A DNA stretch of 64,000 nt from a virus. Position numbers and translations under genes: made by a program. Positions 8,609 through 27,258 of this stretch are shown in pieces. Every line of letters begins with the position of its first letter. Position 1 is the stretch's first letter. Below the pieces are notes generated by a model. It was not told the DNA's origin, searched no databases, and saw only the letters and a program-made list of their open reading frames with translations. The stretch covers positions 1 through 64,000 of IMG/VR virus record IMGVR_UViG_3300020578_000017; one strand, given 5' to 3'.

Positions 8609-10570
8609 TCATATACTATTTGTTGATATATTTTGTGCATTTTGTGAAACGGCTGAGTTTTCTAAGATAATAGCTTCAACTTTTGCTTCTATGTCAATTG
8701 AAGTTATATTATAACCATAAGCAAATCCTGGTACTAAGTCATACCCATTACTATCGCTAATCGTAAAATATGGATCACTAAGGTTTTTTGGCTTTTTATC
8801 ACTAATTATAGTGCTTACATTGAGATTTGCTGTGTCTATTATAGAATCAACCCTTGATAAAGTACTTTGAGCCGTATTTAACTCAGGTTTGTTTTCTTTG
8901 TTTTGTTTATCCCTTACAAACTTTATAAAATTATCTAAATCTTGTGAATTTTTAGCTAAATATTCCCTAAAAGTATTTTGCACTAATCCTTTTTGATTTT
9001 TATATTGAATAAAAAGAGCCTCTATACTAGATGTATCTGAACCAAGTACGTTTTGTATTTGGGAAACTATAGCTGTTTTCTTTTGATCTTTGTTTTCTGA
9101 AAAAACTAGATACCTTTCAGATGTGCTCACTTTCCTTCTTAAAGTATCTACGCCTAATGTTGTTGTAAAGCTCTGACCAAAGCTAAAATCATGAGATATG
9201 GTCCTAACATAACAGTAAACATCTTCTTCTTCTAGATATATTGGAATACCTAGCTTTAGCTCTGGCCTTCCTGCAATCTCAATATTTGCAGTGTATTCTT
9301 TAGTATTAAGACGATTTAACTCAGAAACTGCAAGATAGAATAAGTTCTGAACATCTCTTACATAGTTGTAAGAAACTTTATTCTGCTTTATTCCATATGT
9401 TTTTGCTTTTTCTGTGTCTATATAAAATATGCTTGGTTTTTTAACGGAATTTGAATCGTGCATAAAAGCACCTTCTATGTCTACACGGGTATAAATATTG
9501 TCTAGGTTATGAGTAATCGAGTATGATAATAAATCCAAACTTGATATTTTATACTCATTCAAACTTTTAGTGTTTAAGTTGTAATAGGGTGGCTTAAATG
9601 TTATTATTCCACCAGTATCCATGAAAAACTCAAAGTTAATTCTATTCTTTACTTCATTGGCTACCTCTAGAGGAGATCTTATGCCTAAATTGAACGGGTC
9701 TTGACCACCACTTATTTCTGCATATAAAGGCAAAGATTCTGATGGAGAACCAAAAGTGCCACCGCTTAGAGAAATAGGTGTAAAAGTTTTAGTCTTGAAA
9801 ATGACTTCGTTATCAACTTTGTTTTTTTCTATTGCGTTTTTTATCGCGGACTTTCTGCGATTATCAAGCCCTAGTATTTTCATGGACTGATCCGTAATTG
9901 AACCGAATCTGTTTCTCCAGTACTCCATAGCTGTAGCATAAGATTTGGCGTTAGTAGCTACTATTTTTCTTACTGTGTCAGTGTTTCCAATTAATGGCGC
10001 ATCAACCCCAACAAGGTCTTTAAACATGGCTAGAGATAGAGCATAAATAATCTCTGGGCCAGTCAAGTTTGAGTACACATTAGACAATGCTCGAAATGGA
10101 GAACCTACATTAAGACTATTAAGCGCCGAGTCTGAAGTTATAATCTTACTGATATCCCACCACTTCAACATATCCTCGCAAGAGACGTGCATGGAGTAGA
10201 AGCCATCAGAGTACGACTTCTCTATACTGGTTATTAGGCCCCAGAATACTAGATAGTACTGTGGCTGTCCTGAATCGTCTAAAAACCTACCCTTTATAAA
10301 GATCTGCACCTCAGACATAAGAGGTATGTTCAACTTGCCGTTTTCATAAACTTGTGAACTGTTATGCTTAGGTACAGCTAAATCAAATGAGGCAGTACCA
10401 GGATTACTCTCAAGCGATAGATTGACATTTAATCTGGTAATAAGATCAACAATAAGAGAGCTTGCCCCACAGTCCCTGCATACTGGCAAATCTATATTTT
10501 GATTAATCGTTACAAATGCATCTGGAGCTAAAAGTAGGACAGGCCTATTTTTTTGATATTGAAAGTTCAT
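8609..10570 (-). CDS. Baseplate hub-like protein (gp27/gpD type)
   Basis: A 653-residue soluble protein. The N-terminus has a CRDC pair and a beta-rich segment (EVQIFIKGRFLDDSG, then YYLVFWGLITSIEKSYSDG) like the first barrel of tail hub proteins, in which a ligand-like beta domain is followed by a 'GxItsi' strand. The middle is helical with a long insert. Around residues 360-480 a second barrel contains GIPIYLEEEDVYCYVRTISH. The order tape measure, small baseplate proteins, hub, spike matches gp27/gpD proteins, which join the tube to the spike. The start overlaps the stop of the preceding gene by four bases. The assignment rests on context plus weak fold-level signals. Confidence 0.6.
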   Translation of the reverse strand: MNFQYQKNRPVLLLAPDAFVTINQNIDLPVCRDCGASSLIVDLITRLNVNLSLESNPGTASFDLAVPKHNSSQVYENGKLNIPLMSEVQIFIKGRFLDDSGQPQYYLVFWGLITSIEKSYSDGFYSMHVSCEDMLKWWDISKIITSDSALNSLNVGSPFRALSNVYSNLTGPEIIYALSLAMFKDLVGVDAPLIGNTDTVRKIVATNAKSYATAMEYWRNRFGSITDQSMKILGLDNRRKSAIKNAIEKNKVDNEVIFKTKTFTPISLSGGTFGSPSESLPLYAEISGGQDPFNLGIRSPLEVANEVKNRINFEFFMDTGGIITFKPPYYNLNTKSLNEYKISSLDLLSYSITHNLDNIYTRVDIEGAFMHDSNSVKKPSIFYIDTEKAKTYGIKQNKVSYNYVRDVQNLFYLAVSELNRLNTKEYTANIEIAGRPELKLGIPIYLEEEDVYCYVRTISHDFSFGQSFTTTLGVDTLRRKVSTSERYLVFSENKDQKKTAIVSQIQNVLGSDTSSIEALFIQYKNQKGLVQNTFREYLAKNSQDLDNFIKFVRDKQNKENKPELNTAQSTLSRVDSIIDTANLNVSTIISDKKPKNLSDPYFTISDSNGYDLVPGFAYGYNITSIDIEAKVEAIILENSAVSQNAQNISTNSI

Positions 10571-11301
10571 GCGTTATCTATATGACCCTCAACTAAAGGA
10601 GGGCTATTATAGAATAATACTACAAATTCAAAAGTATAATCAAAGTTAAACGGATTTTCTGGACTTTGTGAGTAAGCAAAAGATTCAAAATTTCCATAAC
10701 ATAAAAGGTCTAAATACTTAAGCTCTACTAAATTTCTAGTGTCTATAGTTTTTCTTGTAGACGAAGCAAGTAAACTCTGATTACTTCCGGTGTTTTCTTG
10801 CTTTTTGTATGATTTTTTTATCTGAGATATAGAATTGTATTTTTCAGTTCTTTCTTCTTTTAATAAACTACTGTTTCTAAAATTAACACTATTATTTTTA
10901 TAAAGCAAAAGAAGATTCATAAAGTTTTTATAAGCAACAGTTTCATTTGCCTTTTGTCGGGTAAGTCCATCGTTTTTATGTAAAAATGCTGCAGATTTAC
11001 CTTGGGCGTTTATTATATCAAGTTCATCACCCCAGTATTGCGGTATGAACCCAGCTCTAGTATAGTTACTTGCATTTATTGCTTTTGACATAGAAATACC
11101 GAGATTGCTTGGATTTATATCTAAATAAATCTGAGAACCTGAAACATAAGATATAGTTTGATTTATAACTTTTACGCGACTAAACCTAAGAAGTTTATTT
11201 GTATCTACATAAGCTTGAGATAGCTTAAGACCAGATACGTCAAAGGCAGGTATCTTATCTACGCTAAAGTTTCCAGGAAGATCATCTTTAGAAAGTGACA
11301 T
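10567..11301 (-). CDS. Baseplate / tube-initiator-like protein, paralogue 2
   Basis: A 244-residue protein that overlaps its neighbours on both sides by 4 and 14 bases. Its central segment (LDINPSNLGISMSK, then GFIPQYWGDELDIINAQGK) aligns by eye with the preceding gene (FYVNPNSWNMNYKP, then GWIDELWGEELDSIGVEA). Both end in a strand-rich segment of the type FNFDYTFEFVV. Similar N-P-x ... WGdEld ... G proteins occur in baseplates of large phages, where they sit next to LysM-type and tube-initiator proteins. It probably joins the tape measure or tube end to the hub. No enzyme motif is seen. Confidence 0.55.
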   Translation of the reverse strand: MSLSKDDLPGNFSVDKIPAFDVSGLKLSQAYVDTNKLLRFSRVKVINQTISYVSGSQIYLDINPSNLGISMSKAINASNYTRAGFIPQYWGDELDIINAQGKSAAFLHKNDGLTRQKANETVAYKNFMNLLLLYKNNSVNFRNSSLLKEERTEKYNSISQIKKSYKKQENTGSNQSLLASSTRKTIDTRNLVELKYLDLLCYGNFESFAYSQSPENPFNFDYTFEFVVLFYNSPPLVEGHIDNA

Positions 11302-11818
11302 CTGTACCGAGTACCTTAAACGTAAAGCTAAAACTCAACATAAATGGTTTATCTACTGAGTCCTCTAAAGATAAGCTTTCAAAGAAACCGTAATAGATAA
11401 ACCGATCAAAATGTAGCTCTAATGGTATGAAATCTTTAGCAAAGTTATTGTCTATCGTTATACCGCCAGAACGATATGCTTGAACAATCTTCTCTAGTCT
11501 TGTAAATGCATCACTTGTTTTACTGTCAGAAAAGCTAGCAAACCCAGTACTTTCTGTTTGAAAGCCCCCTGAAACTGCCTCTACGCCGATTGAGTCGAGT
11601 TCCTCTCCCCATAACTCATCTATCCAACCCGCATGACTACGTCGTCTTGTAATTTTAGGCTTATAGTTCATGTTCCAAGAGTTTGGATTTACATAAAAAT
11701 AAACTTTTTCTCCATCAGGTGTTTTTATGTATACTAATGAACTTTCTTGAGTTGGGTAAAAGCGAACCAACTGATTTTTTGAATCATTTGGTGCCTTACC
11801 AAAAGTACCTTCGCTCAT
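11288..11818 (-). CDS. Baseplate / tube-initiator-like protein, paralogue 1
   Basis: A 176-residue protein whose ATG overlaps the TAA of the last tape-measure gene (TAATG). A beta segment VYFYVNPNSWNMNYKP is followed by a basic stretch and then GWIDELWGEELDSIGVEAVSG. The end, FMLSFSFTFKVLGTD, is a beta strand pair of the type found at the C-terminus of tube-like folds. The next gene is a shorter-motif paralogue of it. Their place between tape measure and hub suggests baseplate proteins that start tube assembly. The function is inferred from position and architecture. Confidence 0.58.
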   Translation of the reverse strand: MSEGTFGKAPNDSKNQLVRFYPTQESSLVYIKTPDGEKVYFYVNPNSWNMNYKPKITRRRSHAGWIDELWGEELDSIGVEAVSGGFQTESTGFASFSDSKTSDAFTRLEKIVQAYRSGGITIDNNFAKDFIPLELHFDRFIYYGFFESLSLEDSVDKPFMLSFSFTFKVLGTDVTF

Positions 11819-14800
11819 TAGCTATTCTGCCTTAAGTAATATGTAACAAAGTCATTCGTTTTGTTGACTGCTACCCTGCGAATTTCTTGCTCAATCTCTT
11901 TGGCATTCCTACTAACATCAAGAATAACCTGACTATTCGTATTAGGGTCTACTTTAGTATAGATCATCTGATCTATCTCAATGTCTGCTACCAGGAATTC
12001 ACCTGATGAAAATCCTGAACTTACTATGAGATCAACTATGTTTCCAAGGTCTCGGTCTGCTGTAGGGGCATCGTATAGTCCAATAACAAGGTCTTTGTAC
12101 CCATAAGAGGAAAGACTCGCTTGATTAGGTAAAAATCTTGTTGCTGGTCCAGTAATAGCGTTAACCGGATTTGGTAAGTTTACCGGGCTTGGCATAGAAA
12201 ATGAAGGCATATCTGGAGCTTTTGCTTCTGGAGAATCTGACTTTTCTTGACTTACCGGCCTGCCTAAGAGATTATAGTTTGATGTATATGTGTATACTTG
12301 CTTTCTCTTGCTTATGCTTGCTCTTAGAGAAGAACTCTCTGCTGCGGCAGAACGTGACTCTTCCCTGAATAGCCTTTCGAATTTATGAACAGACTCAACC
12401 TCTTGTCTAGTAAGATTTTTGCTAGATTGATCTACTAAATTTACTACTTCAGGAACTCTTGCAGCTGCTCTAAAGAACCCTCTGAGCAGGGCTTTCCTTA
12501 CTTCTGGGTCTGTTGATGAACTTACTATATCCACTAAAGGTTTCATTAATGCCGGATTTATTTGCATTTTCTGCATAATGTCTGCGCCGGATGTTTTATA
12601 GTAGCTATCCTTGAACCAACCGAATACATCAAGCTTCTGTCTTATACTTGACCGCTGTACGGAGTCAGCAGCTGACCAGGATTCAGTTAGGAAATCTTTT
12701 AATATTTTTTCAGCTTGTTCTGTATTTTTAGACCTACCTGAAGATATAAGTAAAGAAAACAGAAGCACAAACTGCTGGGAGCTTATCTTATCTTTTAGTA
12801 AACTAGGAATCCTGGAATAGGCATCTAAAGCGGCAGCTTTTACTATCTCAGGATTTTTATTTTTACCAGAAGATATGGCTTGATATGTCTTATCGGACAT
12901 AGTTTTAGCATAGTTTTCATAGTACCTGGATAGTTGATCTTCATTAAGGCCAGAAAGATCCTCTAAAGGTACTTCTTTATTGGTAATTTTAGGGGTTCGA
13001 GATTCAATTTCTGGCTTTAATGCAGCAAGTTTACTATCTTTTGATATTTTTTCAAATAATAATTTTCTGTACTCATCTAACTCTTTAATTTTATCTACTA
13101 ACTCCATCCTGTCTTCTTCGGTGCGACCTCCTGACAAATATTTCCTTTTTAGACCATCTACTTCTCGTGACAAAGACGTATACTTTATAAACTGCTGGGC
13201 AACTGGCAATCCTCCTGTAAATAGAGCAGATAACTTTCCTGAAATTGAGGTAAATATACTGTTTACATCGACAAATAAAAAGTCTAGGTAGTTTTTTATG
13301 TCAGAAAACATGTCGGCAAAGTGTTGCCTCTGACTAAAAAGTTGTATTTTTAAATCTTGTGCCTCAACTTTTGCAGCGGTAGACTCGTCTATCCTCGCAC
13401 CATTAATATCTCTGATTTTTTGAAACTCAGTCACTTTTTTTATGGTGTCTAAAGGCTTAGGGCTGCTTTTCTTCAGGTTAAGTAATATTCTTAACATATC
13501 CATGCCAAATTGACCAAACTGAACACCAGCAGCTGCCTCAATAGTTCTAAGATTCTTTGACATAAAGCTGGCTAGCTTCTCCGGAGAAGACTTGAGTATG
13601 TCAATTTGAGGTAGTAGCAATTTTCTAAGTTTGACAATCCCATAGGCAAATTGAGCACTTGGATCAGACTTAAGTAAGTTTTGTAACTCTAAAGCCGCAG
13701 ACTCAAAATTAGTGCCGCTATCTTTAGAAAGATTTTCTATTGCCCTGTCTGCTAAAGACTGATTGATCGCTTCTGCTCTTTCATTGCCAACAATTCCGCC
13801 ACGATTACTCTTGAAAATTTCTTCCAAATCATTTCTGGTCACAAGCTGATTTGAAATATCAACAAAAAGGGTATCAGTGCCAGAAGAGAAAGTCTGTAGT
13901 TGATTTAAAAAGTTATCTTCCCCTTTCTTGTTCATTATCCTGGCTTTTTGAATAGTAGAGATGAGATTAATTAAACTACTTACTCTGGTATTAAGCCCGG
14001 ACATCTTACCCTGAAGACCCCTGAATGACATAAAAAGTCGATATGAGTTTAATCCACCAGTCGCTGCTACCTTAGAGAGATAAGCTAATGCCTGAGATGA
14101 TTTTTCGAAAGTAAACTGTTGACCGTCAATCATTGAGTCAAAGGCTTCAACAACTTGACCAGATTCTACGCCAAGTCCTTTTTGAAAAGTAATAACCTCA
14201 TTAATAAGCTTCATTCTGGCTTGATTAACATCTATAGCTTTTCCTGACTCGTCTATAAGCCTTCTTAAATCTATGCTAGAAGACATGGAGTCAAGTTGTT
14301 GTATTTGATCTTTGGTTAGTTTATAAATATTTGTGGAATTTTGCTCTAAGGAAATATTCGTATCTCGTAGTAAACTTACATACTCATTTTGTGCCTTATT
14401 CAACTGAGCAGCAACTAAGTCTTCCCTGAGGCCTACATTTAAACTGTACTGTAGCTGGCGTGTTCCTCTTGTCTTAAGTATTTCCTGGTTAAAGTTATGA
14501 ACTGCAGCAATGGCCTTAATCGCAAAGGCTACTAAGCCAAAAACCCCAACGTTAAGAAACATTTGTATGGGCTGTATTAAAAACTCAAGACCCTTTATAA
14601 TGTTGCTAAAGACTTTTACTAGACCTAGATATACACTTGATGCCAACGACGGCGAAGCGCCAAAATTGGTCGATTGTTTTTTTATTTTTGATGCAGTATC
14701 GATTCTTAATCTCATTTGTGACAAGTGATGTTTAGCTTTTTTTATATTAAGCTCTCTTACAGCACTGAAAGCTTTTTTAAACTCACTTACTGCTTCATTT

Positions 14801-15420
14801 GCCTCTTTAAATATTTCCTGATTTACTGAACCAACATTCTGATAAACACTTTGAGCAGTTTTAGTAAGATTTTTTGCTTTATCCTGAAGTTTTTTTAACT
14901 CAACTATAGACTCATTCAAAGATTCTTGTGATTTTGATAGCTCTTCTAAGTCTATATCTTGTAAACTTCCTTGTTCAGCAAGAGTATTAGCTAACTTTTT
15001 AAGTAAAGCATATTGATTAGCTACTTTTATACTAATCAAACCTGAAACTGAAGCGAGCTTAGCTGTATCAGCTGGATTTAATAAATCTGAAGTTTTGGCA
15101 AGCTCAAAGAAATCTTCTCTGGCTTTTCTATTCCTTATTTCCGCTTCTTTAAGGTCTCTGATGAAGTCGCCAAACAAATCATATGAACCAAAGACTTCAT
15201 TCGATAAGACCGAAATATCACGAGCTGAAGACTCAAAAGACTTTCTGATAACTTCTACAGAATCATTCAATGACTCAAGGTTAGATAAGGCGTTTCCCTG
15301 GGCTTTATACTCTGGCGAAAGATCAAATGACTCTAATGTTGTATCAAAATTCTTTAGTGATTCAAAGTATTTTTTTTGTTTAGCAGTAAAATTTTTAAGA
15401 TCTTGTATGATACTAAACAA
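11818..15420 (-). CDS. Tape-measure-like protein D
   Basis: A 1,200-residue protein and the last of four consecutive genes of almost equal size. The first ~250 residues are charged helices with coiled-coil character. A hydrophobic segment (about residues 280-306, VGVFGLVAFAIKAIAAV) is followed by FNQEILKTRGTRQLQYS near 310. The other three proteins carry a matching motif at 322-336. The middle is mainly helical and the C-terminal ~180 residues become Pro/Ser-rich, then beta-rich. No peptidoglycan-cleaving domain is seen, unlike copies A and B. Tape-measure proteins line the tube lumen and set tail length; whether all four do so here is inference. Confidence 0.7.
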   Translation of the reverse strand: MFSIIQDLKNFTAKQKKYFESLKNFDTTLESFDLSPEYKAQGNALSNLESLNDSVEVIRKSFESSARDISVLSNEVFGSYDLFGDFIRDLKEAEIRNRKAREDFFELAKTSDLLNPADTAKLASVSGLISIKVANQYALLKKLANTLAEQGSLQDIDLEELSKSQESLNESIVELKKLQDKAKNLTKTAQSVYQNVGSVNQEIFKEANEAVSEFKKAFSAVRELNIKKAKHHLSQMRLRIDTASKIKKQSTNFGASPSLASSVYLGLVKVFSNIIKGLEFLIQPIQMFLNVGVFGLVAFAIKAIAAVHNFNQEILKTRGTRQLQYSLNVGLREDLVAAQLNKAQNEYVSLLRDTNISLEQNSTNIYKLTKDQIQQLDSMSSSIDLRRLIDESGKAIDVNQARMKLINEVITFQKGLGVESGQVVEAFDSMIDGQQFTFEKSSQALAYLSKVAATGGLNSYRLFMSFRGLQGKMSGLNTRVSSLINLISTIQKARIMNKKGEDNFLNQLQTFSSGTDTLFVDISNQLVTRNDLEEIFKSNRGGIVGNERAEAINQSLADRAIENLSKDSGTNFESAALELQNLLKSDPSAQFAYGIVKLRKLLLPQIDILKSSPEKLASFMSKNLRTIEAAAGVQFGQFGMDMLRILLNLKKSSPKPLDTIKKVTEFQKIRDINGARIDESTAAKVEAQDLKIQLFSQRQHFADMFSDIKNYLDFLFVDVNSIFTSISGKLSALFTGGLPVAQQFIKYTSLSREVDGLKRKYLSGGRTEEDRMELVDKIKELDEYRKLLFEKISKDSKLAALKPEIESRTPKITNKEVPLEDLSGLNEDQLSRYYENYAKTMSDKTYQAISSGKNKNPEIVKAAALDAYSRIPSLLKDKISSQQFVLLFSLLISSGRSKNTEQAEKILKDFLTESWSAADSVQRSSIRQKLDVFGWFKDSYYKTSGADIMQKMQINPALMKPLVDIVSSSTDPEVRKALLRGFFRAAARVPEVVNLVDQSSKNLTRQEVESVHKFERLFREESRSAAAESSSLRASISKRKQVYTYTSNYNLLGRPVSQEKSDSPEAKAPDMPSFSMPSPVNLPNPVNAITGPATRFLPNQASLSSYGYKDLVIGLYDAPTADRDLGNIVDLIVSSGFSSGEFLVADIEIDQMIYTKVDPNTNSQVILDVSRNAKEIEQEIRRVAVNKTNDFVTYYLRQNS

Positions 15421-15422
15421 TT

Positions 15423-18400
15423 TTAGCCCCTCTTAGTGATGTTGTAATACTGGCTAATCTCATTTAGTCTAATTGAGACAGCTTGATCTGCTATGCTTGC
15501 AACATCAGTAGTGGTTTCAATAACTTTAAGTTTGACGTTTCTTACTTTATAATCAATATCACCTGTGATTGGTGCTAGTCCTGGTCGAGGAAGTCTGCTC
15601 GTTATAGAAGGTAAAGCAGATGCCCTTCCCATAACTTTCCTTTTTTCTTGATCTTCCTCTCGTTTTATGTCCCTTCGCGCCTTATCCCCTAAAGAACCAG
15701 GTAGTATAGATGCAAAACCCCTAGTTAGCCTTGCGTACCATGGCATTTCTTCTGCTTCTTTTTCTAACTGGGTAGCAGCAGTCTTTGTGGTTTCTGAATC
15801 CTTAGCTTTCCTAATTTGACCCCGCTGTTCTGCTGTTGGCTCCTTTGGCTTAGCTTGGCTACTTGCTGACTGTCTAATTGCGTTGAAGCCTATATCTAAA
15901 GCTTTTTGAACAGACTGCCGATCTCTCTGATTATAAGATAGAATATTCCTTTGAATATTTGTTCTGTTATTGTCTATGGATGACAATACTTGGTGTAGCA
16001 ATCTTTCTGGGTTTTTTTCTGTAGCAGCTTTGTCTAAAAATTCTCTTAAGATAAAAGAGAAAAGAGGCGAACTGCCAAACTTAATCCTAAGAGCCTCAAG
16101 CAATAAGCTCTTAGGATCTGTCGGATTTTTTTCTAGTAACCGTAGTAACTCTTTTTGCTCGTTTGTTAAGTTTAATACGCTATCTGGAATTTTTACTGTA
16201 ACACCATCAGATGAAACACTTCTCCTGGAAGCGGCTTGCTTTAAGGCGGGTACATTGAGAGACGCACTTGGTAGTCTTACCGCCGTACCGATATTTGAGG
16301 TAGTGGCTACCGGCGCTTGGCTACTACCAACGATAAATGACTTAAAAGCTTCTTTCATTTCTTGGTCGAGTTTTGATTTTATATAAGCAGGAAAGTCACT
16401 CTGGCCTGTTACGGTGAAATAGTTGGTGAAGTTTAGAGACTGAGAAGCTAGTGATGCTTTAACTTGAGACGGTGAAGACTGTGCTAAATCTGCCAACCTG
16501 CTCGCAGCTTCATTAAAACGTTGAATAGCTTCGGCTCTTTGTGGTCCATTAGAAGACAGTATCTTAGCTTGTTGTTCTCTCATAGTTGCTAAAGTGTCGC
16601 CAAGCTGCTTAATAAAATCAGAACCAGATAATGATTCAGTAGGTGCCGCGATGCCAAGCTTACTTGCTATCCATTTTGCAAAGGATGACTCAAGTAAACC
16701 ATGCTGTATAAAGTCAATTATATTCTCTGCTAAGCCTTGAACTTTTATAAGTAATCCTTCAATGGCGTTGGTAACACCTCTAAGAGGGGGTACCAATTGA
16801 TCGGCATTATTTGCTAAGCCTGTCTCAAGTTTTTGATACGCAGACGCATCTGATTCTGCTTGATCGTTTATGTCACCAAGAAGCATAGAAAGCAAGTCGC
16901 CTAGAGTTTTCGTAGGGTTAGCTTTAGCTAATGCAAGTAAAGACTGTCTAATAGTAAATAATGCGTTCTCATCACCCGTTATGAGCTTTGACCTTGTAAA
17001 CTGCTCCATGGTCATTTGCATAGCTCTATCAAAGCCAGGGTCAGAAGCTTTCATACTTAAAGTATTCTTGTCATATAAAGCTTGAGCTAAGATAGCTTGT
17101 TTAGTCTGTGGCGGAACAAGCTTTAAGGCGTAAGCGATATCCCTAAGATCTGCTGCTGTTGGGTTTAGTTTTTTGCTTTGAATATCTTTCAGTTTTCTTA
17201 GTGCCTGTTCTACAAATCCCTTAGCCCTCTGCTGCCCTTCAGTTCCGGTAGGCATAGCTCGAACAGTGGTCTCTAAAATGTCAACTAGTTCGGATGGCTT
17301 TTGTGCTAAAAGGCTAGCAACCATTCTTTGAGTAGAGTCGTCGTCTTGGAATGCCTGGGAAACCGCTTCTATGTAGGAAGTAACATCACGTGTCCCTAGT
17401 ATCTTTGTATCGTATAATCTAGTGAATAGAGATGCTGTAGCTTTTAAGTTGTCACCAAAAATTGGGGACTGCATGGCTAATCCCTTTGTGGCACCAAGCA
17501 ATCTAGCTACATTAATATAACTACCTTTTGTTACCCTGTTAAGGCCACCGTATAAGGACTGAAGCTGCCTCTCGCCGTACCCATATTCATTCACTAACTC
17601 CATAGAGTTTTGAGCAACTTCATCTGTGCTGATTCCCCAAGTATAGCTCAAGGCTAAACCCATATTGACAAACTTATTCAGGTTAGAAATAACCCCGGCG
17701 CCTTGTTGCAGGTTTCCTTGCAGCCTCGGTAAGTTCAATCCGGCATATTTTGCCAATTCTTCCTTTGCTTGCTCAGGTGATAGTCTAAACTTATTCTGAG
17801 TAGCATCAGCTGTTGCGTATATACTAGTAAACTCATCTTTAAGTTTGTCAAATATTGAATCTACGGTTTTAAAATCTGCTTGAGCTCGAAGGTCTAAACC
17901 TAAGTCACCCAAACTTCTTCCAGATAAAAGAGTCTTATTAAGTTCTCTGGCTTTATCGCTTGCGCTAAGCACTAAACCTAGAACAGATACAATACCACCG
18001 GCTACGGATATTCCTACGGAAGCCCACCTAGCAAAAGATGATATCTTTCCCACGACAGAAGTAAACTTTGAAAGAGAACTTTCTATTACTTTCTGGGTTG
18101 CAGATAAAGAATTATCTATATTCGACTGATCTTTTCTATCTGACGAGACTTTAGCAAGGGCTTTCCCTAAGCCTTCAGCTTTTCTGAAATGTTTTTCTGC
18201 CTCAGCTGGGTTTAAAGAAAATGCTGCTCTAACGCCATCAATGAAACCCTTAGCCGCATCCTGGGCACCTTCAAAAAATCCTTCGAAGCCTTTTTCAAGA
18301 GTTTTCTTTGCTATCTCATCCAGGCCTTTTTGATACCCAACTAGAGAAGATGACTCTCGTTTTAGGGTATCTCTAGCTTGAGCAAGTTGTGTTGTTTTTT

Positions 18401-18932
18401 TGGCTACAGAATCTTGTAATGGTCTTAGTTTATTTGCGTATTCTACATCGCTATCGAATTGTTTTCTATCTATTCTTGCAATTTCTTGTAAAGACTTTTG
18501 CAGGGATTGCTGAATAAACTCAACTTCTTTTACATTCTTATCAAGATTAGACATATCCTGTGAGGAAATTAGTCCTTGATAATAAGCTCTTTTACCTATA
18601 TTTTGAATCCTTTGAGCGTAGCTTACTGTTTCTAAAATTTGCTCTCTGATGTTCGGAAAAACTTGTACTAAATTTTTTTCATTAGCGATCTCTTCCCAGG
18701 ATTTATCTAGTTCGTCTCTTTCCTGGCTAAGTGTATTTGCTGTTTCTCTAAGTTGCGCGAAAAGCTCAGGATCATAAGCATCCTCAACATTCTTAGCTGT
18801 GTCAAATAAAAGCTTGTTGAACGTTTTAGTTTTTTCAGTTATGCTTTTAAGAAACTCTGCTGAATTAGCAAAGCCAAGTTCTAACTTAAACGATAAGCTA
18901 GAACGATTTTTTGCTTTGTTATTAGGTGCCAC
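15423..18932 (-). CDS. Tape-measure-like protein C
   Basis: A 1,169-residue protein, third in the series. Residues 1-290 are mostly charged helix. A Gly/Val-rich hydrophobic segment (SVGISVAGGIVSVLGLVL) runs to about residue 323 and precedes LNKTLLSGRSLGDLGLD at 331, the counterpart of FNQSII and VNKSII in copies A and B. A second hydrophobic patch lies near residue 730 and a basic, Pro-rich zone follows near 1080-1120. The C-terminus is short and beta-like. It overlaps copy B by 11 bases and stops two bases before copy D. No enzyme domain is recognised. It is read as a tape-measure paralogue from size, order and the shared motif. Confidence 0.7.
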   Translation of the reverse strand: MAPNNKAKNRSSLSFKLELGFANSAEFLKSITEKTKTFNKLLFDTAKNVEDAYDPELFAQLRETANTLSQERDELDKSWEEIANEKNLVQVFPNIREQILETVSYAQRIQNIGKRAYYQGLISSQDMSNLDKNVKEVEFIQQSLQKSLQEIARIDRKQFDSDVEYANKLRPLQDSVAKKTTQLAQARDTLKRESSSLVGYQKGLDEIAKKTLEKGFEGFFEGAQDAAKGFIDGVRAAFSLNPAEAEKHFRKAEGLGKALAKVSSDRKDQSNIDNSLSATQKVIESSLSKFTSVVGKISSFARWASVGISVAGGIVSVLGLVLSASDKARELNKTLLSGRSLGDLGLDLRAQADFKTVDSIFDKLKDEFTSIYATADATQNKFRLSPEQAKEELAKYAGLNLPRLQGNLQQGAGVISNLNKFVNMGLALSYTWGISTDEVAQNSMELVNEYGYGERQLQSLYGGLNRVTKGSYINVARLLGATKGLAMQSPIFGDNLKATASLFTRLYDTKILGTRDVTSYIEAVSQAFQDDDSTQRMVASLLAQKPSELVDILETTVRAMPTGTEGQQRAKGFVEQALRKLKDIQSKKLNPTAADLRDIAYALKLVPPQTKQAILAQALYDKNTLSMKASDPGFDRAMQMTMEQFTRSKLITGDENALFTIRQSLLALAKANPTKTLGDLLSMLLGDINDQAESDASAYQKLETGLANNADQLVPPLRGVTNAIEGLLIKVQGLAENIIDFIQHGLLESSFAKWIASKLGIAAPTESLSGSDFIKQLGDTLATMREQQAKILSSNGPQRAEAIQRFNEAASRLADLAQSSPSQVKASLASQSLNFTNYFTVTGQSDFPAYIKSKLDQEMKEAFKSFIVGSSQAPVATTSNIGTAVRLPSASLNVPALKQAASRRSVSSDGVTVKIPDSVLNLTNEQKELLRLLEKNPTDPKSLLLEALRIKFGSSPLFSFILREFLDKAATEKNPERLLHQVLSSIDNNRTNIQRNILSYNQRDRQSVQKALDIGFNAIRQSASSQAKPKEPTAEQRGQIRKAKDSETTKTAATQLEKEAEEMPWYARLTRGFASILPGSLGDKARRDIKREEDQEKRKVMGRASALPSITSRLPRPGLAPITGDIDYKVRNVKLKVIETTTDVASIADQAVSIRLNEISQYYNITKRG

Positions 18933-21900
18933 TATTTCCTACGAGACGTTCCCAGACCCGGATTAAATTATTGGCGTCATTCAGGTACAAGGTCTCATAT
19001 AGAACATTCTTATAAAAGACCTGATTACTAGGTGGCGTTACATCTTGTTTAGGTGTTACAATATACCTAAACTTTCTGCCGTCCCTAGTATCTGGCAATT
19101 GCTCAAGAATAAATTGAGGAACTGAAACATCGTCTTTCTTGCCAAACGATGAATCCGTAATTCTTCCGGTTCCTACTTCAATACGAGGAGCTAATCTAGG
19201 TAACCGGGAAGACTTTACTTTTTGAGTGGAAACACGATATGTAGCTGGATTTCCTGCGGTAAACTGACTATCTAGTCTCGGAAGATTTAGTTTTCCTGTA
19301 GGAAGATTGGCCTGCCTAACTAATCCATCACTAATATTATCTGCAGTTCTTGGAATATTTGATCCAGTTCCGGAAATCTCTGATAGCCCTAATCCTACAG
19401 CTATTTTATCCTTTACTTGATCGTATGGGGTTTTTTCTCCCATGGATATGCCGTATAAAACATGCATAGCGCGGTCTATCTGATTAGTTACTTTATCTGC
19501 TGAAGACCCTTCAGGAAGATTTGGCGAAAAAGATATGTCTCTATTTCCTGCTCTATACCTACCTGAACGATTTCTAAGCACGTCTTCAACTAAATCTGGC
19601 GCAAGATGCATGGCAGCAGCTAACGATAATATATCGCCTTCACCCAAATTTAGATTTCTTTCCTTGCTAATTCTGACAATCTTTTGTATGTTACTGGCTG
19701 CTCTTTCTGCCACAAGTCTTGCTGAAGAAATAATATCCATGCATTGTTCTTTCCTAGCTTTCCACTGTTCAGGTATAAGCTGAAATACTCCCTTTGGTAA
19801 ATGTCTGGCATTTTTATCTGAGTTTGCTCGTACATTTGTGCCAGTGGCTTGTATTTTTAACGCGAAAAGTAATGCAGGGCTTATATTATACTCCGCTGCC
19901 ACGGCCATTAGTGGCCCATAAATACGTTGATCAGATGCAGTATCTAATAAAAGTTTCTTAGCTAGCTTGGTTTCTTCGCTAGACTGGTTTAATGACATCT
20001 TTGATCTATATAGAGAAGCAGAGTCTAATGGGGCTTGGCTGATGTTAAGCATTCTATCGATACCAAGTCCAGCAGAACCACCAGCTAAAAGCCCTGCTCC
20101 AGCTGCCAAAGCAATTGGACCTATTCCTAAAGTAGTAAGACCAAATATAGCACCACCTGCAATCGCTGCTCCTGCAATGGCGCCAGCGATTACAGGAGTT
20201 TGTCCTCTTGATATGGCGGATATAACACTTTGTATCCAAGAAGTTGCCTTTGACAGCAAAGACTGAGCTCTTCTGAACAAACTGCCAATCCCGGCAAATA
20301 TAGAGTTCTTTGCCTGATTAAGTGTCTTGACACCAGATGTTGTATGCTTAGCCATTCTTGCAGCAATATCAGTCATATTTTTTCTATGATCCTGGGCTTG
20401 AGGCAGCGAACTTTCTAGTTTAAATAATCCGCGATCATCAAGCTTCCTTATACCATTAGGGTCAAATCTGGCCGCTAATAGTAAATCTTTAAATTGTTCT
20501 GGTATATTTATCTGCTTGCTAGCTAAGTCTAACGCTGATCTATAGCTTAGGGCATTGATCATTACTCTATCAGCTTCAATTCCATATATTAGTTTAATTT
20601 GCCCATCTATAGCTTGCTGAAAAACTGGTAAAACAACCTGAGGAAATACCTTTGCGGACTCTAAAAGAGTAAGCATGATATCTGGATTACTTAACTGAGC
20701 CTCATAGAATCCAAGAGAGCTTAACTGTATTTGTACTTGAAGGTACTCATTTGATTGAGTGCCTAGACGATTACCTATATCTATTCTTTGTGCTTCTAAA
20801 GACTTCCTAACTGCTAGATAGCCTTCTCTCATTCTTTGTCTAAGTAATGACAAATCTGTGCTACTATCTAAATCGTAGCCTGCTAATGTAATAAGTGTAC
20901 CCATATCTTCGAATCTTTGACTTTTTACGTTATCTAAAACTGAAGATACAAAATCAGCCGCTTGACTTTCATTCAATTTTGTACTATTGGCTATTTTAGT
21001 TAAAATAGAACTATTGATCGTAAATGTGTTAATGACCCCACCAAACTTTTGAGATATTTCAATGAGGCTATTTAAAGCTAAAGAAGTATTTGTTCTTGAC
21101 TTATATGCACCAACCCTGGCCTCTTCAAAAACTTGTTCAACCTGACTCGTGGTTAACTGAGAAGAAAAAGTCAAATTGCCTACTTTAGACATTACCTCCT
21201 CAAAACTCATACCGAGCAGATGACCGTACTTCGCAGAAAGCGCTATAGGGCTGAATATATTTCTTGTATTTTCTGGATCACCGAAATCCTTAGCTGAACT
21301 AATCTCAAGATTCTTAGTTGAGCCGCCAGCCTCTCTGTAGGCTAAAATGCCCTTAACCCTATCGGTATAGTCAAGTAAAAATTCGTCTTGAACTGAGTTA
21401 AGTTGCTTGTTTAGTGAATCTATTCTCTTGAATAAGTTTTCTGAGTTTGGCTCGATTCCATATAATAACTCTTGTGTGCCAAATAGTTCTATTATGGATT
21501 TGTTTACTTCAGCGGTATAATTCATCCCTTTCAGCATAAGGTCAAGTATGAAGCTCAAATAACCAACGCTTTTACCGATGGAATTGATGCTTTTTACCAT
21601 ACTCTTAAATCCACTGGTCATAGCAGATCCTATTTTACTTAATCTATTGTCAAGCTCAAAAGCATTTTTCGCTTCTTTTTCCGGGTCTACAGATACCTTA
21701 CTTTGTAGTAGCCTTCTTCTTTCTATGGAAACAGCAGCAGAAGTAAGTGCCCGAGAAGCAATCCCCCAAATAGTACCTATTGCACTATTTAGGCCATCTC
21801 CACTATCCTGAATTGAAGTAAAACTATTTTTAACATCATTAAAGGCACTAACTGTGCTTCTAAGTGAGTAAAAGGTTCCTCTTTGTTTAAAAAGTTGCTC

Positions 21901-22497
21901 AACCGCTTCTTTGTAAACTCTATCGGTTTTAATGACCTCAACTGCTAAAGATTCAATTTTATTTGCCTCTTTAAAAAGTAATCTTACAATATTATCGTCA
22001 AGACTTGCTACAGATATAGAATCTAAATCTTCTAAAGTCTTTACGCCTAATCCTGCAAGCATACCTCTGACGACTTCAACTTGCTTTAATTGGGATTCGC
22101 AGTCAGGTATACTTGCTGGTGATAACCTGGATCTCTCGAATAGAATCTCTTCTAGTTTGTTTACAGCATAAAAAACTTGCTCAATCCGTTCTTTTACTGG
22201 TTCAAAGTTTGCATCTGGCCTTCTCTTAAAAGTAAGTAGAAGATCTTTTATAATGTACTCAATTTCAGACTTGACTTTAGATGAACTGTTTTTAAGCTTG
22301 TCTAGTAGCTTAATAAGCTGTTCTTTTTTCTTGTCGGTTGAAGAAAAATCATTTATAGCTTTTTCGGCACTTTCTATAAAAGTATCCCAGTCTTCAGTTT
22401 GTAAGTTTAGCCTTATATCAATATCTTCAACGGATAAAGACTTACCTAGAGATCTAAAGCTTTTTATGAAAGCCTCTAATTCTTCTGAGCTAGCCAC
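18922..22497 (-). CDS. Tape-measure-like protein B with degenerate transglycosylase domain
   Basis: A 1,191-residue protein. It has helical coils to residue 300, then a hydrophobic segment and VNKSIIELFGTQELLYG near 331. A strongly hydrophobic Gly/Ala patch lies near residue 755 (GAIAGAAIAGGAIFGLTTLG). About residues 855-985 look like an SLT lytic transglycosylase domain: MAVAAEYNISPALLFALKI, then GVFQLIPEQWK at 903. The usual catalytic site Q-E-S-G reads Q-A-T-G here (Ala884, codon at 19846-19848), so cleavage activity is doubtful. The domain may still bind peptidoglycan. The next copy upstream (A) carries an amidase, so the pair may divide the work on the wall. Confidence 0.72.
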   Translation of the reverse strand: MASSEELEAFIKSFRSLGKSLSVEDIDIRLNLQTEDWDTFIESAEKAINDFSSTDKKKEQLIKLLDKLKNSSSKVKSEIEYIIKDLLLTFKRRPDANFEPVKERIEQVFYAVNKLEEILFERSRLSPASIPDCESQLKQVEVVRGMLAGLGVKTLEDLDSISVASLDDNIVRLLFKEANKIESLAVEVIKTDRVYKEAVEQLFKQRGTFYSLRSTVSAFNDVKNSFTSIQDSGDGLNSAIGTIWGIASRALTSAAVSIERRRLLQSKVSVDPEKEAKNAFELDNRLSKIGSAMTSGFKSMVKSINSIGKSVGYLSFILDLMLKGMNYTAEVNKSIIELFGTQELLYGIEPNSENLFKRIDSLNKQLNSVQDEFLLDYTDRVKGILAYREAGGSTKNLEISSAKDFGDPENTRNIFSPIALSAKYGHLLGMSFEEVMSKVGNLTFSSQLTTSQVEQVFEEARVGAYKSRTNTSLALNSLIEISQKFGGVINTFTINSSILTKIANSTKLNESQAADFVSSVLDNVKSQRFEDMGTLITLAGYDLDSSTDLSLLRQRMREGYLAVRKSLEAQRIDIGNRLGTQSNEYLQVQIQLSSLGFYEAQLSNPDIMLTLLESAKVFPQVVLPVFQQAIDGQIKLIYGIEADRVMINALSYRSALDLASKQINIPEQFKDLLLAARFDPNGIRKLDDRGLFKLESSLPQAQDHRKNMTDIAARMAKHTTSGVKTLNQAKNSIFAGIGSLFRRAQSLLSKATSWIQSVISAISRGQTPVIAGAIAGAAIAGGAIFGLTTLGIGPIALAAGAGLLAGGSAGLGIDRMLNISQAPLDSASLYRSKMSLNQSSEETKLAKKLLLDTASDQRIYGPLMAVAAEYNISPALLFALKIQATGTNVRANSDKNARHLPKGVFQLIPEQWKARKEQCMDIISSARLVAERAASNIQKIVRISKERNLNLGEGDILSLAAAMHLAPDLVEDVLRNRSGRYRAGNRDISFSPNLPEGSSADKVTNQIDRAMHVLYGISMGEKTPYDQVKDKIAVGLGLSEISGTGSNIPRTADNISDGLVRQANLPTGKLNLPRLDSQFTAGNPATYRVSTQKVKSSRLPRLAPRIEVGTGRITDSSFGKKDDVSVPQFILEQLPDTRDGRKFRYIVTPKQDVTPPSNQVFYKNVLYETLYLNDANNLIRVWERLVGNSGT

Positions 22498-25400
22498 TGC
22501 TTACGCCTTTTTCTACAGTTGGCCTATAATTCATCATTATGTAGTCAATAAACTTAGAAGAATCCTTAATGTATACGTCCATATTGTACTGTTCTATAAG
22601 AATAGATTTTCCATCGGAAAGTTGGCTTAAATGCTGGGCAAACTTTTCTCTAAAACTCTCATCAAGTCCTACTACGCTCTCATGCCGAATGGATTCTCGT
22701 TGAGAGTGCTGAAGCCTTTTCGCAATTAAAGAAAACTGCTTTACCTGTTCTTTTAGCTTTTGTCTATGGGCCATCTGTTTCAGGTATTGTTCTTTTGACT
22801 CAACTCTTCTGATTTGACCCCTGACAACATCGAGTATTACTTCGGGGTTAACTTCAATCTTAAAGTCTCTAAAAAAATTAAGAATGAGTGCGGTTCTTTC
22901 TTTGCCGTTACTTTGAATTATTCGCTTTAGCTGAGGAAGGTCATATCTCTCAAGAAAGTTTTCCGACTTTTTAACGAAATCCCCATAAGACATATTGGTA
23001 TTTATAGCTGTTTCCGTGGCATAAGCTTTTTCAAACAACCTTTGAGAATAAGTATCTTCCTGTATTGTATTTTGGTAAGCTCTTACGGCAGCTCTTTTAT
23101 TTCCCTCTGGGGCCTTAGCAGACTCTACTCCAGTTTTCATAGTTCTCACTAAAGAACGTAGTCTACTCCAGTCAAACCCTACAGGGTCAGTTCTTACTTC
23201 GCCTAGTCTTTTACCGGAAGGAAGAACTACCCTTTCTCTTCCCCTTGCAACTTCTTCATGCGAAATAACATCCTCTAAGCTAAGACCATATCGGGTCATA
23301 AGTGAAGAAACTAATCGAGCAACAGCCATATACTGAACTTCAGTGTAGTCACTTTTTCCATATCTCTCGATTTCAATGCCTAACGCTGCAGGATTTATTG
23401 ACTCACCCATTTTAAATCCCTCAGAAAGTAAACTGCTTCCTGGACCTATTGCACCGCCGTGAGAGGCTATCTTTTTTTCATCGACCATGTAATAAATTTT
23501 ACCGTCACGACCAACTATATAATGAGCTGATGTTTTTCCTGGTCCACCAGTAAACTCACTTATAGCGGAAGAAGCTGTTCCCTCAGTAGAGTGGAGGACA
23601 ATCTTACGCAAACGCTGTATTTCGCCTTTATTGCTTTTCCCTAACTTGTAAGCAGGAACCTTTCCACGATAATCAACAACTTGACCAGGAGATATGCTAG
23701 TTAAGCTAGGAGAAGTTCCGGTACTTTCTAAAGCGGGTGCTGGAACTTTTTTTGCGTTGGTTATAAAGTTCCATAAAGTCTGACCTACACTGTAAAGTTG
23801 CATAAATGTACTATGTATCTTAGAACCAATAAACCTTAGTGACTTATCTAAGGACTCAGCAACAGTTATAGTCTTTAAGTTCATACTCAAAGCGGACTTC
23901 ATAACCAACTGCTGAATATTTTCTGCCGTTAATTGCGGAGGACTTGGCCTTCCTTTATACTTAGATGTATATCTTTTTGCTGTAATAAGCTCAGAAATAC
24001 TTGAACCAAGACCAAGCGTGGTTGTTGCTTCTTCAATAAGTGTTCTTTTTGATAAGCTTGGGGGCCTGTCCCCCATTCTTTCGTTATATATTACTCTATA
24101 TCTTGCAGCTACTGCATCATCTAAAAGATCAAAACTTAAATCCGGAAACATTCTTATCAAATTCGTAGCAAAGCTAGATATTTGAGTAAGATTACTTCTG
24201 TCAGAACCTACTAGTTTCCTTTGTCTCGTAGCATAATCTAACATGTACTGAAGCTCGGTAACTTTAGCTAAAGCAGCGTCTTTGTCAGCTTTATTGATTA
24301 CAAACTTAGCCTTTCTGCTTTCTTCTTTTATTTGCTCACGGAGCGTAGATGCAGCTTTTGTTAAAAACTTAGAAACTGCTCTTGGGTTTTCTGAAAAAAG
24401 AGGGCCAAGTACACCCATAATTTGTGAAGTGCTATACCCCATAACTTCTTGTAACACATTACTTAATAAATCACGACCTTGATCTGCGCTCAGTGCTCTT
24501 TTTCTAACTAAACTGTTTAAGATCGTACCAAACTGCCTTGACCTGTTCGTAAAGTAAGAAAATGAGTCTGATAGAGAAATAACATTTGCTAAAAATGCTT
24601 TTGGACTTACTGGGCTGCTTGATACAATATTTGCTAGATTCCTGAAAGAATCTGTGGTTGTGCTAAATAAATCACCGAAGCTAAACCGCCAGTCCCCAAT
24701 AGCCCTACCTAGCTCTGATGGGTCAGACTGAAATACCTGAGATATTGCATAGTAATCTTCTAGGGGTCCTTTAAGATTTGCAATTTGCCCTGTTCTTATG
24801 TTGGCAATCATATTTGGCTTCAGGTTTACTCTACCAAACTCGGCTTCCAAATCACGTATGGTTAAACCTGATTTGATTAAAGGGTCAAGTAAGCTTATAT
24901 ATTTTTCTGGATCCAGGTTTAGCTGTATGGAAAAACTATCTTGATTAACAACTGAGCCATCTGGTCGTGTTATTGTATATGAAAAAGATTTATCGTTAAG
25001 GTAATCGTACAAAGTCTGGTAAAATGAGCTTAATGCTGCCTCTTTATTGGGAGCTTTAGGGTCTACCATACTCAACTGATTGATCGTGCCAAACAGGTTA
25101 ATTATACTCTGATTGAAGCTTATCTGCTGCTGCCTACCGGCAATTATATATTGAGCAGCTTTTGCCAGGACCATAAGTAAAAACCCATAAGGACCGACTA
25201 TTTTACCCATTGAGTGAATAATGCTGGTAGATACCTGAGAAACTGAATTAAAATCTTTGTTAGCATTGAACTCTTTAGCTAGAACATTTTTTGAGCTTTT
25301 TGCAAAAAACTGACCAGAATACTTACCAGACCTTATATCTTGGGCTCTTTTTTTTAAAATAGAATCAAATAATCTATTTGAGCCTTGAAGTATTGTGTTA

Positions 25401-26080
25401 ACGACACTCGGTAGCCCATTTCCGGTTGAAAAAAAGTTAAACATTCCGGTTCCAGATTTTTTTAAATCCATAAAAGCAGATTCTAATGGAGTTAAAAATG
25501 CATCATACCCATCTAGTGATTTCTCTTTAAACAAAGTAGAGTTGTAGGTCGCTTGAGCAATCGCTAACATTTTAGGGTCTAAACCTTTGGTGAAGTTAGT
25601 AGACTCTTTCCTAAGTAAAGAAAGTAAGTTTTTTAAGTTATTGATCTCTTCTTTTGTGAAATCACTTTCTTCTTTACTTGATTTTATTGCTTGAATCTGA
25701 CGAGATATATTTTTTATCGAGATACGTCTATCATTTATTTCTTTTACTACAGAAGGTGGAACTTTATTTGGTGCTAAAAGACTAAAGCTGTTTACTGATT
25801 TCCAAACTAAATTTGGTATCTCAGTAAGCTTCCTTACCTCAGTATCTATTTGTTTTTTTTGTGAGTAAGTTTGTATTTCAGGTTGCGATAACACATAGCC
25901 ACCGCCTAACTTGAACCTCTCTGTCTTAGAACTCACATTAGGAAACTTTTGCTTTACTAAAGTGTCAAGGCTTCTCTCGAAGTTGGCTACCTGTTTTAGG
26001 CTTCTATCCGATCCTAGGCCATCCCAGTCTATTTTAAGCTCTCGCTCAAGGAAAGCGTAGTCGTCGCCAAATTCTATCAT
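22490..26080 (-). CDS. Tape-measure-like protein A with amidase_2 domain
   Basis: A 1,196-residue protein, first of the four. Helical coils are followed by a hydrophobic segment (GPYGFLLMVLAKAAQYII, from about 296) and FNQSIINLFGTINQLSM at 322. Residues ~820-980 form an N-acetylmuramoyl-L-alanine amidase (amidase_2/PGRP) domain: IVLHSTEGTAS with His830, ALGIEIERYG, ISHEEVARG with His941, and RTDPVGFDW with Asp965. These are plausible zinc ligands and the Glu seen in AmpD-type enzymes. The domain would cut the stem peptide from muramic acid as the tail enters the wall. The start overlaps the stop of the preceding gene by four bases. Internal wall-degrading domains are known in other tape measures. 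Confidence 0.82.
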   Translation of the reverse strand: MIEFGDDYAFLERELKIDWDGLGSDRSLKQVANFERSLDTLVKQKFPNVSSKTERFKLGGGYVLSQPEIQTYSQKKQIDTEVRKLTEIPNLVWKSVNSFSLLAPNKVPPSVVKEINDRRISIKNISRQIQAIKSSKEESDFTKEEINNLKNLLSLLRKESTNFTKGLDPKMLAIAQATYNSTLFKEKSLDGYDAFLTPLESAFMDLKKSGTGMFNFFSTGNGLPSVVNTILQGSNRLFDSILKKRAQDIRSGKYSGQFFAKSSKNVLAKEFNANKDFNSVSQVSTSIIHSMGKIVGPYGFLLMVLAKAAQYIIAGRQQQISFNQSIINLFGTINQLSMVDPKAPNKEAALSSFYQTLYDYLNDKSFSYTITRPDGSVVNQDSFSIQLNLDPEKYISLLDPLIKSGLTIRDLEAEFGRVNLKPNMIANIRTGQIANLKGPLEDYYAISQVFQSDPSELGRAIGDWRFSFGDLFSTTTDSFRNLANIVSSSPVSPKAFLANVISLSDSFSYFTNRSRQFGTILNSLVRKRALSADQGRDLLSNVLQEVMGYSTSQIMGVLGPLFSENPRAVSKFLTKAASTLREQIKEESRKAKFVINKADKDAALAKVTELQYMLDYATRQRKLVGSDRSNLTQISSFATNLIRMFPDLSFDLLDDAVAARYRVIYNERMGDRPPSLSKRTLIEEATTTLGLGSSISELITAKRYTSKYKGRPSPPQLTAENIQQLVMKSALSMNLKTITVAESLDKSLRFIGSKIHSTFMQLYSVGQTLWNFITNAKKVPAPALESTGTSPSLTSISPGQVVDYRGKVPAYKLGKSNKGEIQRLRKIVLHSTEGTASSAISEFTGGPGKTSAHYIVGRDGKIYYMVDEKKIASHGGAIGPGSSLLSEGFKMGESINPAALGIEIERYGKSDYTEVQYMAVARLVSSLMTRYGLSLEDVISHEEVARGRERVVLPSGKRLGEVRTDPVGFDWSRLRSLVRTMKTGVESAKAPEGNKRAAVRAYQNTIQEDTYSQRLFEKAYATETAINTNMSYGDFVKKSENFLERYDLPQLKRIIQSNGKERTALILNFFRDFKIEVNPEVILDVVRGQIRRVESKEQYLKQMAHRQKLKEQVKQFSLIAKRLQHSQRESIRHESVVGLDESFREKFAQHLSQLSDGKSILIEQYNMDVYIKDSSKFIDYIMMNYRPTVEKGVSSG

Positions 26081-27258
26081 TTAGGACGATTCCTGGGATT
26101 GTTTACAGGTAAGCCTCCGCGCTTTATCTCCCCTGAGAAATTGCCAGGATTTACATTTACTGGAAGTATTGTTGATCTTGAGGTGTTTGAAACTGGTAGT
26201 ATTGATGAATATAAATCTTTAGGAACTTCATACTCTTTATCTATTTGGTCAAGCTCATCTTTAGTGACGCCAAGAACTGTAATGATCAACTCTCTTCTTT
26301 GATCAAAATCAGTGATGTCTTGCATCTTATTTTCATCAAAAATAGTAAATGGTTCAGCAACGGAAGATTTTTCTAGCTCTGAAGCTTTAGCTTTTATAGC
26401 TTCTATCTTACGTTCTCTTTCTTCTCGCTTAAACGTTCTATACCCTTCTAATGCGTTATCTCTGGCGCTATCCATTGCCAATTCGTGAGCATCTTTTTTA
26501 TTGTTAACAACAACATCTAAATCATATAAAAGCTTTTTGTACTCATCTTCTCTAGAAGAGTTGGATAATGGATTGACCAAGGAGTCTGAACTGGTGGAAA
26601 TACCTTTTGCCCGGTCCATGACTTCTTTTCTATAGTCATCTTCTTTTGACCGTTGGTCAGTGACTTCTTTGTCAATCTTTTCAACAGCTTTTCCGTTTAA
26701 AAAAGCACCCATCCAACGGACATAACTCCATTGAACATCAAAACCTTGTCTGTCATCTTCAGCCCGGTTGTAGCTTATCCACTGAACCTGCATCGAGTTA
26801 AGAGGTAGCTGGTCAGTTCCTTGCAATCCAGTAACTGTGGTGGAGTTTAGAGTAGTATTTAAATATGCTTTCCAATAAACCCTGGACTGAGGCTCATAGC
26901 AGTATGCCTCTAGCTTACCAAAGGCATCTGTAATCCTACGATTAAAGGTCAAACACTTATGTATTAATCTACTTATTGCTTTTGATGGCCATTTTCGTAA
27001 GGAGTTAAATAACTTTAAAGCGCTATCATCTCTATCTTTTAAGAATAAAACGCCATCGATTTGAAGTACTGAATAAGCCAAGTACCAGCAATCGTAAATT
27101 ATCTCTTTAGCGGGGTGTTTGCTGGGTGTTCGATCTTTTATTCGCTGAAACTCTAAATCGTTAAGTGATTTAAGAACAAAGTCAAAACCATTGAAGTGTA
27201 AGCTCTCAGTAAGAAAACCCTTAAAAAGAAGCTGCTCTACGTCCTCGTAATGGTTCAA
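26077..27258 (-). CDS. Tail assembly chaperone-like protein, second frame
   Basis: A 393-residue protein lying directly between the first chaperone-like gene and the tape measures, where the second (frameshifted) chaperone usually sits. The N-terminal half is globular, with clustered Trp/Tyr. Residues ~190-310 are highly charged helix. The end is Pro/Asn-rich. A TTG start at 27258 has AGGA just upstream. The frame stays open further upstream as far as the preceding stop codon (LRQKKAQWQDI), so production by frameshift cannot be excluded. A role in loading or shielding the tape measures is inferred from position only. Confidence 0.5.
   Translation of the reverse strand: MNHYEDVEQLLFKGFLTESLHFNGFDFVLKSLNDLEFQRIKDRTPSKHPAKEIIYDCWYLAYSVLQIDGVLFLKDRDDSALKLFNSLRKWPSKAISRLIHKCLTFNRRITDAFGKLEAYCYEPQSRVYWKAYLNTTLNSTTVTGLQGTDQLPLNSMQVQWISYNRAEDDRQGFDVQWSYVRWMGAFLNGKAVEKIDKEVTDQRSKEDDYRKEVMDRAKGISTSSDSLVNPLSNSSREDEYKKLLYDLDVVVNNKKDAHELAMDSARDNALEGYRTFKREERERKIEAIKAKASELEKSSVAEPFTIFDENKMQDITDFDQRRELIITVLGVTKDELDQIDKEYEVPKDLYSSILPVSNTSRSTILPVNVNPGNFSGEIKRGGLPVNNPRNRPK

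Follow-up and report, generated by a model that had tools for sequence, protein, structure and literature searches.

The window analysed here, a 64,000-nucleotide stretch (positions 1 to 64,000) of the 116,449-bp virus record IMGVR_UViG_3300020578_000017, carries on its minus strand a row of four large genes, W1 to W4, whose products are in all likelihood tape measure proteins (TMPs) of one family. The consecutive lengths given by a sequence-only reading of this DNA, 1196, 1191, 1169 and 1200 amino acids (aa), agree exactly with ours. The genes are coupled: W1 and W2 overlap, as do W2 and W3, a gap of 2 bases separates W3 from W4, and W4 shares 1 base with the next gene. The start codons chosen are the sole or best candidates; W2 and W3 each have one possible in-frame start near the 5' end, and the TTG start of W4 is preceded by GAGGGG, which resembles a ribosome-binding site. 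The nearest relative, IMGVR_UViG_3300020198_001494 (hereafter, G001), has a tail sheath protein 58% identical to that of the window phage and encodes four copies of its own, R1 to R4 (1450, 1179, 1207 and 1237 aa).

The shared domain and probable tape-measure identity

The four W proteins have in common a domain of ~350 residues around a short motif, which defines the TMP family and is significant by BLASTP, iterated hidden Markov model (HMM) searches and profile-profile comparison. When window and G001 proteins were compared by BLASTP (small database), W1 to W4 paired with R1 to R4 in order, and R3 matched R4 across 600 residues (E 1e-41). The iterated HMM recovered a ~360-column domain in all eight copies and in one gene in each of ~45 related viral contigs; the E-values in Table 1 come from profile A8, which has W1-W4 themselves among its rows. 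The sequence-only reading had named profile alignment as the check on homology among the four, and comparison of the group profile for copies 1 and 2 with that for copies 3 and 4 bore it out (probability 97.8, E 9e-13, 222 columns). Detectable homology among W1-W4 is confined to approximately residues 190-600. The motifs stand where they had been reported, i.e., FNQSI at residue 322, VNKSI at 331, LNKTL at 331 and FNQEI at 310, and are more than a chance resemblance, as the same position reads K-x-F-N-K-x-x-L-x-x-x-G in 30-odd single tape measures.

The family HMM also found gp257 of the isolate Tunturi_5 (a Tunturiibacter phage), an annotated tape measure of 1106 aa (E 7e-13). The tail of this phage was measured at 167.0 nm (PMC11924767), which corresponds to 1.51 Å per residue of gp257. 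A second Tunturi_5 protein, gp91 (511 aa; PP885688.1 70005-71540, L262), is likewise annotated as a tape measure and, unlike gp257, has no match to the family HMM. AlphaFold2 (AF2) models were made for two of the four, W3 and W2, with modest confidence (mean predicted local distance difference test scores of 58.5 and 52.5, respectively). Both are almost entirely helical, with long N-terminal helices, a tape-measure domain that is ordered over the conserved stretch, and a C-terminal helix at the end. Searches of these models against viral models using Foldseek gave 55 hits for W3 and 14 for W2 (E up to 1e-3), nearly all the named ones being tape measure or minor tail proteins, and a PDB fold search with W3 returned nothing. 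The W row lies between the tube and presumed chaperone genes on one side and baseplate-type genes on the other, as single members of the family do.

Copy number, duplication history and length

Whole-record searches with the domain profile detected four copies in the window record and four in G001. Among 34 other related records, 30 had exactly one copy and 4 had no match; the single-copy records include ten of 300-536 kb and Tunturi_5. In most relatives the single TMP gene occupies the same place, after the tube gene, a chaperone-like gene and a ~400-aa gene, and in complete single-TMP loci the very next gene encodes 200-320 aa, with a larger gene after it. IMG/VR scans with the sheath and tube proteins gave no further four-copy relative, although a number of the best tube hits stop short of this region, and records may be fragments. 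Used alone as IMG/VR queries, W3 and the terminase found no close relatives, and tblastn against annotated phages returned no matches for W3 or R4 and amidases only for W1.

In a maximum-likelihood tree, built from a local-pair alignment that included R1 and omitted certain long or redundant rows, the eight W and R copies formed one clade (support 96/91) with the topology (W1,R1), (W2,R2), (W4,(W3,(R3,R4))). A first tree from a default alignment separated the 1/2 group from the 3/4 group, and the single clade is thus alignment-dependent. Independent quadruplication in either phage was rejected, as trees holding the four copies of a phage together failed the approximately unbiased (AU) test (p 0.0019 and 0.0005). 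Orthology within the 3/4 group is less clear: the tree joins R3 to R4, a constraint uniting W3 and R3 was weakly rejected (p 0.038), and one uniting W4 and R4 was not (p 0.09). Given the eight-copy clade, the rejection of per-phage clades and the sister placement of the two phages in the sheath tree (100/95), the simplest history, as read from the sequences, is that the TMP gene was duplicated from one to two and then to four before the two phages split, with the 3/4 part poorly placed. Quadruplication of a tape-measure gene, as had been proposed, is thus supported: the copies form one clade, relatives have just one, and in each sub-group one member has fold matches to tape measures.

The lengths of W1-W4 fall within 31 aa of one another at 11-20% pairwise identity. 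The single members of the family have a median length of 1146 aa (range 732 to 1541, standard deviation 128, upper quartile 1180), and between pairs of them at 15-20% identity the median difference in length is 128 aa. When quadruples of single TMPs were drawn with all pairs at ≤25% identity, 3 of 15,958 (0.02%) were as close as the W proteins (≤31 aa), or 3 of 7,091 with length outliers excluded. The lengths of the parts of the W proteins also tend to compensate one another (13 of 576 permutations as low). In G001, R2-R4 are within 58 aa of one another. R1 has a strand-plus-helix stretch at residues 1193-1226 that is like the C-terminal end of single TMPs and is followed by an M15 peptidase; with R1 counted to 1226, the four chains measure 1226, 1179, 1207 and 1237 aa, all within 58. 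The earlier proposal that selection keeps the chains equal in length therefore has statistical support in the window phage; in G001 it is supported only once the peptidase behind the by-eye candidate dock of R1 is set aside.

Enzymes, hydrophobic segments and neighbouring genes

That enzyme domains are divided among the chains, another claim of the sequence-only reading, is supported. W1 has an amidase domain, R1 has M23 (below Pfam's cut-off) and M15 domains, and R2 has a glucosaminidase domain; no recognised enzyme domain was found in W3, W4, R3 or R4. Recognised hydrolases thus occur in 3/8 duplicated TMPs versus 1/33 single ones (Fisher p 0.019, relatedness ignored). A transglycosylase in W2 was considered and not confirmed, the weak Pfam match being the sole indication. 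The hydrophobic segment expected near residues 280-325 of each protein is strong in W3 and W4 (280-326), and weaker in W1 (peak Kyte-Doolittle 1.47); in W2 the strongest hydrophobic stretch is at 767-813.

Table 1 Positions of the four genes, their domains and their neighbours in the window
Feature	Position	Strand	Basis
W1, tape-measure paralogue 1, 1196 aa, with amidase	22490..26080	-	R1 orthologue in tree
W2, tape-measure paralogue 2, 1191 aa	18922..22497	-	AF2 and Foldseek matches to tape measures; R2 orthologue
W3, tape-measure paralogue 3, 1169 aa	15423..18932	-	AF2 and Foldseek matches to tape measures
W4, tape-measure paralogue 4, 1200 aa	11818..15420	-	Profile match
Conserved tape-measure domain, W1	24410..25474	-	Profile A8, E 4.9e-70
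Conserved tape-measure domain, W2	20854..21864	-	Profile A8, E 8.8e-67
Conserved tape-measure domain, W3	17271..18344	-	Profile A8, E 1.0e-82
Conserved tape-measure domain, W4	13819..14880	-	Profile A8, E 5.2e-74
Predicted C-terminal helix of W3 (1143-1168), candidate baseplate dock	15429..15506	-	AF2; sequence homology not significant
Predicted C-terminal helix of W2 (1162-1187), candidate baseplate dock	18937..19014	-	AF2
N-acetylmuramoyl-L-alanine amidase domain, W1 residues 823-948	23237..23614	-	Pfam Amidase_2, E 3e-23
Small helical domain, W2 residues 841-975, possibly a decayed transglycosylase, unconfirmed	19573..19977	-	AF2; Pfam SLT, E 0.15
Two hydrophobic segments of W2 (residues 767-813)	20059..20199	-	Kyte-Doolittle
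Hydrophobic segment of W3, just before motif	17955..18035	-	Kyte-Doolittle
Hydrophobic segment of W4, just before motif	14491..14583	-	Kyte-Doolittle
393-aa gene between presumed chaperone gene and W1	26077..27258	-	Similar-size gene precedes single TMP in relatives
161-aa gene, presumed tail assembly chaperone	27287..27772	-	Position only
Tail tube protein	27835..28488	-	43% identical to Tunturi_5 gp329 (annotated virion structural protein); adjoins sheath
Tail sheath protein, 972 aa	28594..31512	-	PHROG 279 tail sheath, E 3e-14; relatives
Small protein after W4, possible tube initiator	11288..11818	-	Weak Pfam Phage_tail_tube_init, E 0.08; position
Second small baseplate/tube protein, resembles the 11288..11818 product	10567..11301	-	Position; sequence by eye
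Presumed baseplate hub (gp27/gpD-like) protein	8609..10570	-	Position and sequence only

In the direction of the genes, the order is sheath, tube, presumed chaperone, 393-aa gene, W1-W4 and then baseplate-type genes. The presumed chaperone had no Pfam or PHROG match, and a Pfam search with the presumed hub protein gave no match. Across the wider family (loci L020-L099), sheath lengths range from ~900 to 2040 aa with the last ~430 residues aligning, and the window's sheath is among the short ones; beside its gene, a 182-aa protein (31647-32195, minus strand) is very rich in Ser, Asp and Glu. The virion gene cluster also encodes a 340-aa protein (36552-37574, minus strand) matching Pfam Volactin (actin superfamily; PF25216, E 1e-68), with a counterpart in G001 at L002:2847-3857. 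Next to this actin-like gene, a 322-aa protein (35587-36555, minus strand) without a Pfam match has a CxC...CxH (SWIM-like) zinc-binding pattern. A 680-aa protein (44132-46174, minus strand) with repeats like TGASxLxSTLDVAGxAQFA is likely a fibre. Both four-copy phages encode giant proteins after the spike gene, at least 1792 aa in the window (1-5377, minus strand) and 3380 aa in G001 (L015:1550-11692, minus strand), the latter with stretches that by eye look like BIG_2 repeats.

A proposed four-chain tape, its alternatives and known systems

On balance, we lean slightly towards reading W1-W4 as TMP paralogues that arose by stepwise duplication and are most likely co-assembled in parallel as one hetero-oligomeric ruler, with the enzymes divided among its chains. 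The fuller picture, of one contractile tail holding four different, length-matched chains next to each other, each chain with its own cell-wall enzyme or membrane segment, and of a tail length held by co-selection of the four genes, seems to us evenly balanced. Parallel co-assembly, the stoichiometry and the order of action are what we infer, and a single hetero-oligomeric tape of four chains would be the most economical account. All four would be expressed jointly from the coupled genes and would run in parallel through the lumen of a single tube, with their C-termini at the baseplate hub and their N-termini at the head end, as a hetero-oligomer in place of the homotrimer or homohexamer that other phages have. 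Each would be kept at ~1190 residues since every one spans the same tube, and the predicted tail would be ~180 nm long. On contraction, the whole set of chains would exit the tube and act upon the envelope. Paralogue 1 of either phage would bring a peptidoglycan hydrolase, as would paralogue 2 of G001 (W2 is an unclear case), and paralogues 3 and 4 would bring hydrophobic segments and no recognised enzyme. If all chains span one tube, each should keep the tube length while the rest of its sequence is free to change, and this pattern matches the W data.

Several observations weigh against such a tape. Four types of chain map poorly onto the three- or sixfold symmetry of tails. The lengths of W1-W4 are close to the mode of the family, and the control quadruples are not independent and were drawn from phages with different tails. 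In W1, ~125 residues belong to an enzyme domain, and W3 and W4 have no such domain, so that matched total lengths do not mean matched rulers if enzymes add nothing to the ruler. The candidate dock of R1 was recognised by eye, without a significant score; a C-terminal dock profile built from single TMPs had no significant match to the W or R proteins, and a homology search among the C-terminal halves of W1-W4 scored below decoys. The Foldseek matches of W3 and W2 have low TM-scores, long branches might mislead the tree, and only two phages have the four-copy arrangement, too few to reveal a joint change of lengths.

We favour a parallel hetero-oligomer because serial rulers, or copies freed from measuring, would need no equal length. 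One paralogue could instead be the ruler, as a homotrimer or homohexamer, with the other three being derived ejection proteins in the tube or head that are injected to breach the envelope. The hydrolases and hydrophobic segments do differ between copies, and ejection boluses of several proteins are known in other phages (e.g., SPN3US). We nevertheless consider this unlikely, as free ejection proteins need no ruler length, yet all four W proteins and three of the four R proteins agree within the margins given above, and both W2 and W3 are predicted to have long N-terminal helices, the tape-measure domain and a C-terminal helix. Stacking of the chains end to end, which would make the tail ~4 times as long (~720 nm), seems the least probable arrangement of all. 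Four genes would then supply four lengths (4756 aa in sum) and very long tails exist elsewhere (P74-26), but stacking constrains the sum and leaves the individual chains free, and in relatives with one TMP the chain is of this same size. Both the W2 and the W3 model finish with a C-terminal helix, which in known tape measures is what docks to the baseplate.

Equal length might also mean nothing, with duplicates simply at the family's usual length and retained for enzyme dosage. The family median and upper quartile, and the 1450 aa of R1, speak for such a coincidence, which is improbable when so few equally diverged quadruples match as well. Finally, each paralogue could form a homo-oligomer of its own; virions with equal tails but different tapes and alternative enzyme loads would then coexist. 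This would be expected to preserve equal lengths and account for the different enzymes; we rate it as quite improbable, however, because the genes form one overlapping row with no sign of separate expression and there is no known precedent.

If the four chains do form one hetero-oligomeric tape, then more than one gene can serve to read out tail length, and the system would be a natural test of selection on chain length in every ruler subunit. It would also mean that a homo-oligomeric ruler can become a hetero-oligomer carrying several cell-wall enzymes through one tube. Having four genes makes the number of chains per tail, and whether each of them measures, directly testable.

Searches of the literature for a phage with several tape measures, or for hetero-oligomeric tapes, found none among the papers covered. 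Single TMPs of the same family, such as Tunturi_5 gp257 and a 1127-aa open reading frame of the huge phage LR745208, are like the W proteins in domain and length and follow the tube module in most relatives, but there is one copy per record and a recognised peptidoglycan hydrolase in just one of those scanned. Hydrolases borne by the ruler, as in the W and R proteins, are known from phiCbK gp95 (CHAP; PMC3556154) and from the TM4 tape measure with its peptidoglycan hydrolase motif (PMC1796659); these phages have one ruler gene, whereas here different enzymes are on different paralogues. Known tape measures are oligomeric, i.e., trimers in diffocin, JBD30, T5 and 80alpha, and sixfold in Pam3 (PMC10996793, PMC11445458), and T4 gp29 is listed with three copies. 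In the former five, one gene supplies all chains, whereas the window genome has four genes of the family, of which the tail may use only one. The W proteins may also be likened to the diffocin homotrimer (PMC10996793), whose helical chains run from collar to baseplate with their C-terminal helices anchored in the hub and are proposed to be ejected on contraction; the diffocin chains are three identical products of one gene, and those of the window phage would be encoded by four different ones.

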